From an uncultured Bacteroidota bacterium (lineage in GTDB: Bacteria; Bacteroidota; Bacteroidia; Chitinophagales; Chitinophagaceae): a DNA stretch of 64,000 bases. The position numbers were made by a program, and so were the translations under genes. Positions 15,238 to 18,533 of the stretch are shown one piece after another (the stretch's first letter is position 1; every line of letters begins with the position of its first letter). The notes beneath the pieces are model-generated. The model searched no databases. It had not been told where the DNA came from and was given only the letters and a program-made list of their open reading frames with translations. The stretch is taken from positions 62,001 to 126,000 of the forward strand of contig CAJADG010000039.1 in the NCBI GenBank assembly GCA_903938445.1. The letters are read 5' to 3'.

Positions 15238-18329
<3,092 letters not shown>

Positions 18330-18383
18330 GGTTATTGGTTTTTATTTTTAAAATTCATTTTTTATTTCATTGATGCAACAAAA

Positions 18384-18408
18384 AAGCCCTCCATTTTGTG
18401 GAAGGCTT
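18384..18408 (-). terminator. Attenuator terminator (3:4 hairpin) in the asd leader
   Basis: Minus strand AAGCCTTCCA-CAAAA-TGGAGGGCTT followed by a T6 tract (18380-18385). Confidence 0.85.
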
Positions 18409-18449
18409 CTGAGTATATTTATTCGCATACAAACAATCAGACCTTCCTC

Positions 18450-18494
18450 TTAGAGTGGTTTCTTAATTTGTTTTGTATGTTTATTTTTCATCAT
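18450..18494 (-). CDS. Putative attenuator leader peptide MMKNKHTKQIKKPL upstream of asd
   Basis: ATGATGAAAAATAAACATACAAAACAAATTAAGAAACCACTCTAA lies between a promoter match and the leader terminator. 5 of 14 codons are Lys. Confidence 0.65.
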   Translation of the reverse strand: MMKNKHTKQIKKPL

Positions 18495-18501
18495 TGTGGA
18501 A

Positions 18502-18533
18502 CAAAATTAATTGGATGGAATCATTTCACCAAA
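18502..18533 (-). promoter_or_regulatory. Bacteroidota-type promoter for the asd leader
   Basis: Minus strand TTTG (18530-18533), 20-nt spacer, TAATTTTG (18502-18509), matching TTTG/TAnnTTTG. Confidence 0.7.

Follow-up and report, generated by a model that had tools for sequence, protein, structure and literature searches.

The region upstream of asd in an uncultured bacterium of the Chitinophagaceae very probably acts as a ribosome-mediated transcription attenuator of this gene, with charged Lys-tRNA as the signal. The element lies on the minus strand of the window, that is, the whole stretch of 64,000 nucleotides analyzed here, and was first noticed in a sequence-only reading. We examined its layout, its conservation in related genomes, and the behavior predicted for its RNA when a ribosome occupies different positions on the leader.

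Organization of the asd leader region

The gene located downstream of the leader was identified as asd, with a TIGR01296 score of 420 bits against a cutoff of 324, and the gene located upstream encodes a PfkB-family kinase on the same strand as asd. At its 3' end, asd overlaps by 4 bases (17331-17334) a plus-strand ORF, 15253-17334, whose translation resembles that of what we take to be a NAD-dependent DNA ligase. The features of the region are as follows:

18530-18533, minus strand: TTTG, match to a −33 promoter element, read off the sequence directly 3' of the stop codon of the upstream gene
18502-18509, minus strand: TAATTTTG, match to a −7 element, 20 nt from TTTG and 7 nt 5' of the leader ATG
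18450-18494, minus strand: leader peptide ORF MMKNKHTKQIKKPL, 14 codons plus TAA (ATG at 18494, TAA at 18452-18450)
18459-18482, minus strand: core control codons Lys5 (18482-18480), Lys8 (18473-18471) and Lys11-Lys12 (18464-18459)
18472-18479, minus strand: 5' arm of P1 (region 1), CATACAAA, inside the ORF, pairing with 18433-18426; covaries
18441-18459, minus strand: P2, predicted hairpin around the stop codon (ACC-A-CTC-TAA-GAG-GAA-GGT), sequestering the antiterminator arm
18438-18447, minus strand: 5' arm of the antiterminator (X), GGAAGGTCTG, pairing with CAGA-ag-CCTTCC at 18411-18400
18426-18433, minus strand: 3' arm of P1, TTTGTATG, pairing better with its own partner than with swapped ones; covaries
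18400-18411, minus strand: 3' arm of the antiterminator (Y), CAGAAGCCTTCC, which is also the 5' arm of the terminator
18380-18410, minus strand: intrinsic terminator, AGAAGCCTTCC-ACAAAAT-GGAGGGCTTTTTT with T6, −16.3 kcal/mol
17331-18329, minus strand: asd, aspartate-semialdehyde dehydrogenase, the predicted controlled gene (TIGR01296 and NF011456 above cutoff)

The elements proposed in the sequence-only reading, namely the promoter match TTTG-N20-TAATTTTG directly after the upstream stop codon, the near-leaderless Lys-rich ORF of 14 codons, the pairing of region 1, that of the antiterminator, and the terminator followed by T6, were all found at these positions. Two features were added to them: a mini-hairpin, CTC-TAA-GAG, whose loop contains the stop codon, and additional CTGA/TCAG pairing that extends the antiterminator. 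The 126-nt leader folds with −29.2 kcal/mol, 3.6 standard deviations below its dinucleotide shuffles, none of which (0 of 200) folded as well. This result, together with the retention of the whole arrangement in relatives, confirmed that the leader is more than a chance assembly.

The promoter match follows the Bacteroides consensus TTTG/TAnnTTTG, as quoted in a passage of PMC7366714. In 92 of 113 non-redundant leaders, a TAnnTTTG or TAnnTTCG box ends 5-11 nt 5' of the leader ATG. Since only 7 nt separate the −7 match from this ATG in the window, the transcript is predicted to be nearly or fully leaderless.

The leader ORF and its lysine codons

In the set of 113 leaders, an ORF of 13-23 codons begins at the first ATG that follows the TAnnTTTG/TTCG box. 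Lys accounts for 518 of the 1904 codons in this frame, and for 155 and 234 in the other two; hence, its in-frame frequency exceeds that in the other frames of the same leader DNA by a factor of 2-3. Given that the other two frames hold far fewer Lys codons, an A-rich composition is not the cause of this richness. All of the 111 leader ORFs with complete data contain at least three Lys codons, an enrichment in codons for a pathway end product that is characteristic of attenuators, and Lys is the sole amino acid present in every one of them. When 93 Chitinophagaceae leaders were aligned, Lys occupied core positions 1, 4, 7 and 8 in 87, 87, 93 and 93 of them, respectively, although the values for positions 7 and 8 are set by the anchoring of the alignment on the last Lys-Lys pair. 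The Lys3 codon of the window leader (18488-18486) is not conserved.

The pattern of substitutions in these leaders resembles that of a translated sequence. AAA and AAG swap at the Lys codons across the 111 leaders, and the stop codon is TAA in 56, TGA in 31 and TAG in 24; the start, the frame, and the position of the stop are conserved, with synonymous and stop-for-stop changes. On these grounds, the short ORF upstream of asd is probably translated, as would be expected for an attenuator. In leader L070, all Lys codons are kept while the His and Thr codons change, and in L140 (MMIKKIKCAKKLFR) they are kept although the 13-bp P1 is wholly different. The conservation of the leader ORF and of the alternative pairings had been left in the sequence-only reading as a point on which the proposal could fail; the ORF, the Lys codons, the promoter spacing and the pairings are kept family-wide and beyond.

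These data also bear on the simplest alternative, in which the terminator would simply end transcription of the PfkB kinase gene, asd would have its own promoter farther downstream, and the small ORF would be fortuitous. In the window, the terminator does lie between two genes of the same strand, and A-rich DNA can give rise to Lys codons by chance. However, such an arrangement would account neither for the in-frame excess of Lys nor for the covariation of the helices described below. Moreover, the upstream gene differs in most family members, and at L111 and L114-L116 it is encoded on the opposite strand, so that the terminator can serve asd only. In some species, the T-run is separated from the asd ATG by 17-21 nt, leaving no room for a promoter. 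This alternative is already largely refuted, and we consider it highly improbable.

Alternative helices and the position of the ribosome

An intrinsic terminator was present in 112 of 113 leaders, with a median of −17.4 kcal/mol. Covariation was evaluated on the MAFFT alignment A1 by counting the cells with changes on both sides of a pair. For P1 and the terminator, 53 such cells were observed versus 24 in shuffled data, and for P1 and the antiterminator, 37 versus 18.5; in both cases, none of 500 shuffles reached the observed value, with the caveat that the shuffles ignore the relatedness of the leaders and these counts are not probabilities. Both signals collapsed when the partner was shifted by 1-3 columns. 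The sequence-only reading had suggested that asd upstream regions be aligned and searched for covariation, and this is what P1, the antiterminator and the terminator exhibited. Position pair 26/63 of P1, for example, is GC in 17 leaders, AU in 13 and GU in 3, and L063 carries a GGGGC/GCCCC version in place of GGAAGG/CCTTCC/GGAAGG in X, Y and the terminator simultaneously. Across families, P1 has been entirely rebuilt (as in L140) while the Lys codons stay.

In a second comparison, each arm was paired with its own partner or with one swapped from a distant leader. The mean pairing energy of the P1 arms was −11.4 kcal/mol with their own partner versus −9.0 kcal/mol with swapped ones, and that of the antiterminator arms was −15.1 versus −13.1 kcal/mol. 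Among the non-partner controls, the ORF arm showed no gain with Y, and X showed a small gain with the P1 region. According to the covariation and swapped-partner tests, formation of the antiterminator excludes the terminator, and the stem inside the ORF excludes the antiterminator. When the diverse alignment was folded with RNAalifold, the consensus contained P1 and the terminator; P2 and the antiterminator, which cannot be nested with these two, were absent from it and were tested separately. The outer CTGA/TCAG part of the antiterminator was 65% paired on the MAFFT alignment. Regarding P2, its CTC/GAG becomes CGC/GCG in relatives, and in 106 of 111 leaders four or more bases of the antiterminator arm are engaged by this hairpin in pairs with upstream sequence.

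A structured element with a terminator at its end could also work by direct binding of lysine or uncharged tRNA, as a riboswitch or a T-box-like RNA in which the ORF is incidental, and lysine riboswitches do control such genes elsewhere. Nevertheless, neither the lysine riboswitch (L box) nor the T-box covariance model had a match listed in the window region and 12 related loci, where no other family reached its gathering score either. Little is invariant in the element beyond the Lys codons and the pairing arms, and even P1 can be exchanged as a whole; a ligand pocket, in contrast, would have to stay constant. The exchange of stop codons and the synonymous variation of the Lys codons are likewise at odds with an incidental ORF, and we give direct binding of a ligand very little credence.

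For the attenuation model, we evaluated how the position of the ribosome would affect the structure by constrained folding of nascent or full-length RNA, in which the bases under the ribosome were held unpaired. In the nascent RNA, the mean pairing of the antiterminator was 0.79-0.81 when the A-site was placed at the core Lys codons and 0.11 when the ribosome was at the stop codon, the latter value being low partly by construction since the arm adjoins the stop codon. Pairing was higher with the ribosome at Lys4 than at the stop in 104 of 105 leaders; that is, the position of the ribosome switches the structure in these calculations, in agreement with the geometry of classical attenuation initially attributed to this leader. 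In the full-length RNA, the terminator probability was 0.91 without a ribosome, 0.53 with a ribosome stalled at Lys1, and 0.95 with a ribosome at the stop. Without a ribosome, the nascent RNA at equilibrium favors the antiterminator in many leaders (mean 0.64), from which it follows that the protection by P1/P2 must be kinetic or weak. The calculations suggest that this protection is weaker at equilibrium than in the textbook scheme, and that the order of folding would have to help.

In all leaders, the stop codon occupies one of two positions used in evolution, either 0-3 nt 5' of the antiterminator arm or 9-18 nt beyond the start of the arm (the search covered 18 nt upstream of the stop, its upper bound alone being free). 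In approximately half of the leaders, the ORF is longer, extends across the arm and ends in EG or GR (for instance L081-L084, L095 and L109-L114), and the remaining ones stop just 5' of it, with the same predicted effect. According to the model, either position would place the antiterminator arm under the terminating ribosome.

From this anatomy we infer the transcription start, the translation of the leader, stalling, termination, and the response to lysine. RNA polymerase would start just 5' of the leader ATG, with a ribosome close behind it on the near-leaderless transcript. With ample Lys-tRNA, the ribosome would reach the stop codon and cover GGAAGG, allowing the terminator to form and ending transcription before asd. 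Under a shortage of Lys-tRNA, it would instead stall at a Lys codon and break P1 (region 1 with TTTGTATG); GGAAGG would then pair with CCTTCC, the terminator would be blocked, and asd would be transcribed.

Distribution, target genes and relation to known leaders

The complete element was found in 53 of 70 asd upstream regions from the same genus; of the others, 3 were cut by the limits of the stretch examined or by a contig end (L019, L036 and L046), and 14 lacked it. A covariance model built from 33 of the genus leaders (R1) had matches in 194 of 299 family genomes, representing 72 of 98 genera, and at the threshold used it had none in 105 of the 299. The gene downstream was asd at 95 of the 102 checked loci of the family search and dapA at the other 7, with no other gene observed. 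The description of the element as specific to asd is therefore correct for most loci but does not cover those before dapA; each of the 7 genomes in which dapA has a leader carries one before asd as well. Beyond the Chitinophagaceae, a wider model (R2) detected diverged asd leaders in five further Bacteroidia families, at 16 loci (L133-L135, L137, L139-L143, L145-L149, L151 and L154). In the other families of the same order, the model search yielded no convincing match. Weak matches at the class or order level (L150, L152, L153, L155 and L342-L349), which are not adjacent to asd, were taken as chance, and L351 and L352 were rejected as plain terminators.

In the family genomes, the dapA leader (L109, L112 and L113) sits 3' of a gene that is presumably acetyl-CoA carboxylase carboxyltransferase-like; in the genome of the window (L350), dapA starts about 30 nt after what appears to be the same kind of gene, without a leader.

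The 14 genus cases without a leader at asd (L004, L016, L018, L030, L032, L033, L039, L041, L042, L048-L050, L052 and L067) had no good copy elsewhere in the genome. In 13 of them, asd starts 4-32 nt 3' of the stop codon of the PfkB kinase gene, a layout that suggests deletion of the leader and fusion of asd to the kinase operon; in L067, the terminator alone remains of the leader. On the kinase-gene tree, the well-supported branches force at least 6 changes involving loss of the leader within the genus. These losses, and the 105 of 299 family genomes without a match, indicate that the element is not indispensable.

The same data argue against the region encoding a conserved small protein or a trans-acting small RNA. 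Both would fit the short terminated transcript predicted here, and within the family the core of the peptide shows strong conservation. On the other hand, the C-terminus and the length of the peptide vary freely (13-23 residues), other families do not keep the core, and the copies that were checked sit immediately 5' of asd or dapA, with none elsewhere in the 14 genomes that lack the asd copy. A role in trans seems most improbable.

The identity of the signal deserves a closer look. The leader peptides of the Chitinophagaceae share the core KHTKR[TI]KK, 101 of the 111 leaders contain Thr, and Arg or His is common; in addition, Asd also supplies Thr and Met. Ribosome-mediated attenuation might consequently respond to something other than Lys alone, such as a shortage of Thr or Arg, a general slowing of translation, or arrest by a KHTKRxKK nascent peptide. 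In contrast with Lys, which is the only residue common to all leaders and occurs in 13 of 13 from other families, Thr is found in only 3 of these 13, and core position 5 is variable (R, Q, N, K, T or C). The His, Thr and Arg codons fall within P1, so pairing alone can hold them, and the KK pair is outside the P1 core. The second target is lysine-specific, since DapA catalyzes the first step of the lysine/DAP branch, and this points to lysine. The composition of the leader had been considered to fit the products of the Asd branch in general; this held in every leader for Lys alone. We regard a signal other than Lys alone as unlikely; because Lys is the sole residue in all 111 leaders and dapA is the second target, the attenuator most likely responds to lysine alone rather than to Thr, Met or Ile.

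The element resembles the trp, his, thr, leu and phe attenuators (Rfam Trp_leader, His_leader, Thr_leader, Leu_leader and Phe_leader) in having a short ORF rich in codons for the product, mutually exclusive stems with an antiterminator and an intrinsic terminator before the first gene, and a stop codon that adjoins the antiterminator arm. It differs from them in the control amino acid (Lys), in its targets (asd and dapA), in its Bacteroidota host, and in an ORF that begins no more than a few nt from the predicted 5' end. None of these Rfam amino-acid leader families reached its gathering score in the window region and the 12 relatives, the best being Phe_leader with 23.7 versus 55, and all Rfam matches in these regions were sub-threshold and attributed to chance. 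The L box and the streptococcal asd RNA motif are structured 5' RNAs that precede or control lysine genes or asd in other phyla; here, in contrast, the sensing part is predicted to be a translated ORF, and there is no match to Rfam. Sinorhizobium trpL reportedly has an attenuator ORF whose start coincides with the transcript 5' end; it would share the leaderless design but concerns Trp and an alphaproteobacterium instead of Lys and Bacteroidota.

A closer parallel was found in the genome of the window itself. On contig C91 (locus L354, positions 796-954), hisG is preceded by TAAATTTG, 4 nt, an ATG that opens the ORF MNLNSHIHHHHLLSKG, and a terminator, and a relative (L353) has MLFNNHIHHFHMLSNR at the same place. 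This leader has the same near-leaderless architecture with His codons, being His-specific, and may be taken as an internal positive control for it. Reported observations go in the same direction: the passage on leader peptides in PMC9723704 describes "strong clues" for leader-peptide attenuation before amino-acid operons of Flavobacterium psychrophilum and lists hisG and pheA among the conserved structured 5' elements, and that in PMC7366714 mentions short ORFs reminiscent of leader peptides in B. thetaiotaomicron. Neither passage names asd or lysine.

The statement that an asd attenuator was not well documented in Bacteroidota agrees with our search: no earlier description of a lysine attenuator or asd leader of this kind was found in the open literature that was searched. 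The element is apparently an undescribed, lysine-specific relative of the known leader-peptide attenuators that is absent from Rfam. On balance, we lean towards the broader view that a near-leaderless Lys attenuator acting on asd, and in places on dapA, is ancient, sets the lysine supply in much of the Bacteroidia, and is the first lysine-specific attenuator of its type to be described.

In well-studied bacteria, it is riboswitches, T-boxes or repressors that control the lysine genes. If our interpretation is correct, this attenuator would take, in much of the Bacteroidia, the place held by the lysine riboswitch in other phyla, and it provides a concrete candidate for the regulator of the aspartate-family branch point in a phylum with few understood cis-regulatory RNAs. 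Taken with its hisG counterpart in this genome, the near-leaderless start of the asd leader suggests that Bacteroidota use a general design, in which translation of an attenuator would begin at the 5' end of its transcript without a Shine-Dalgarno site.
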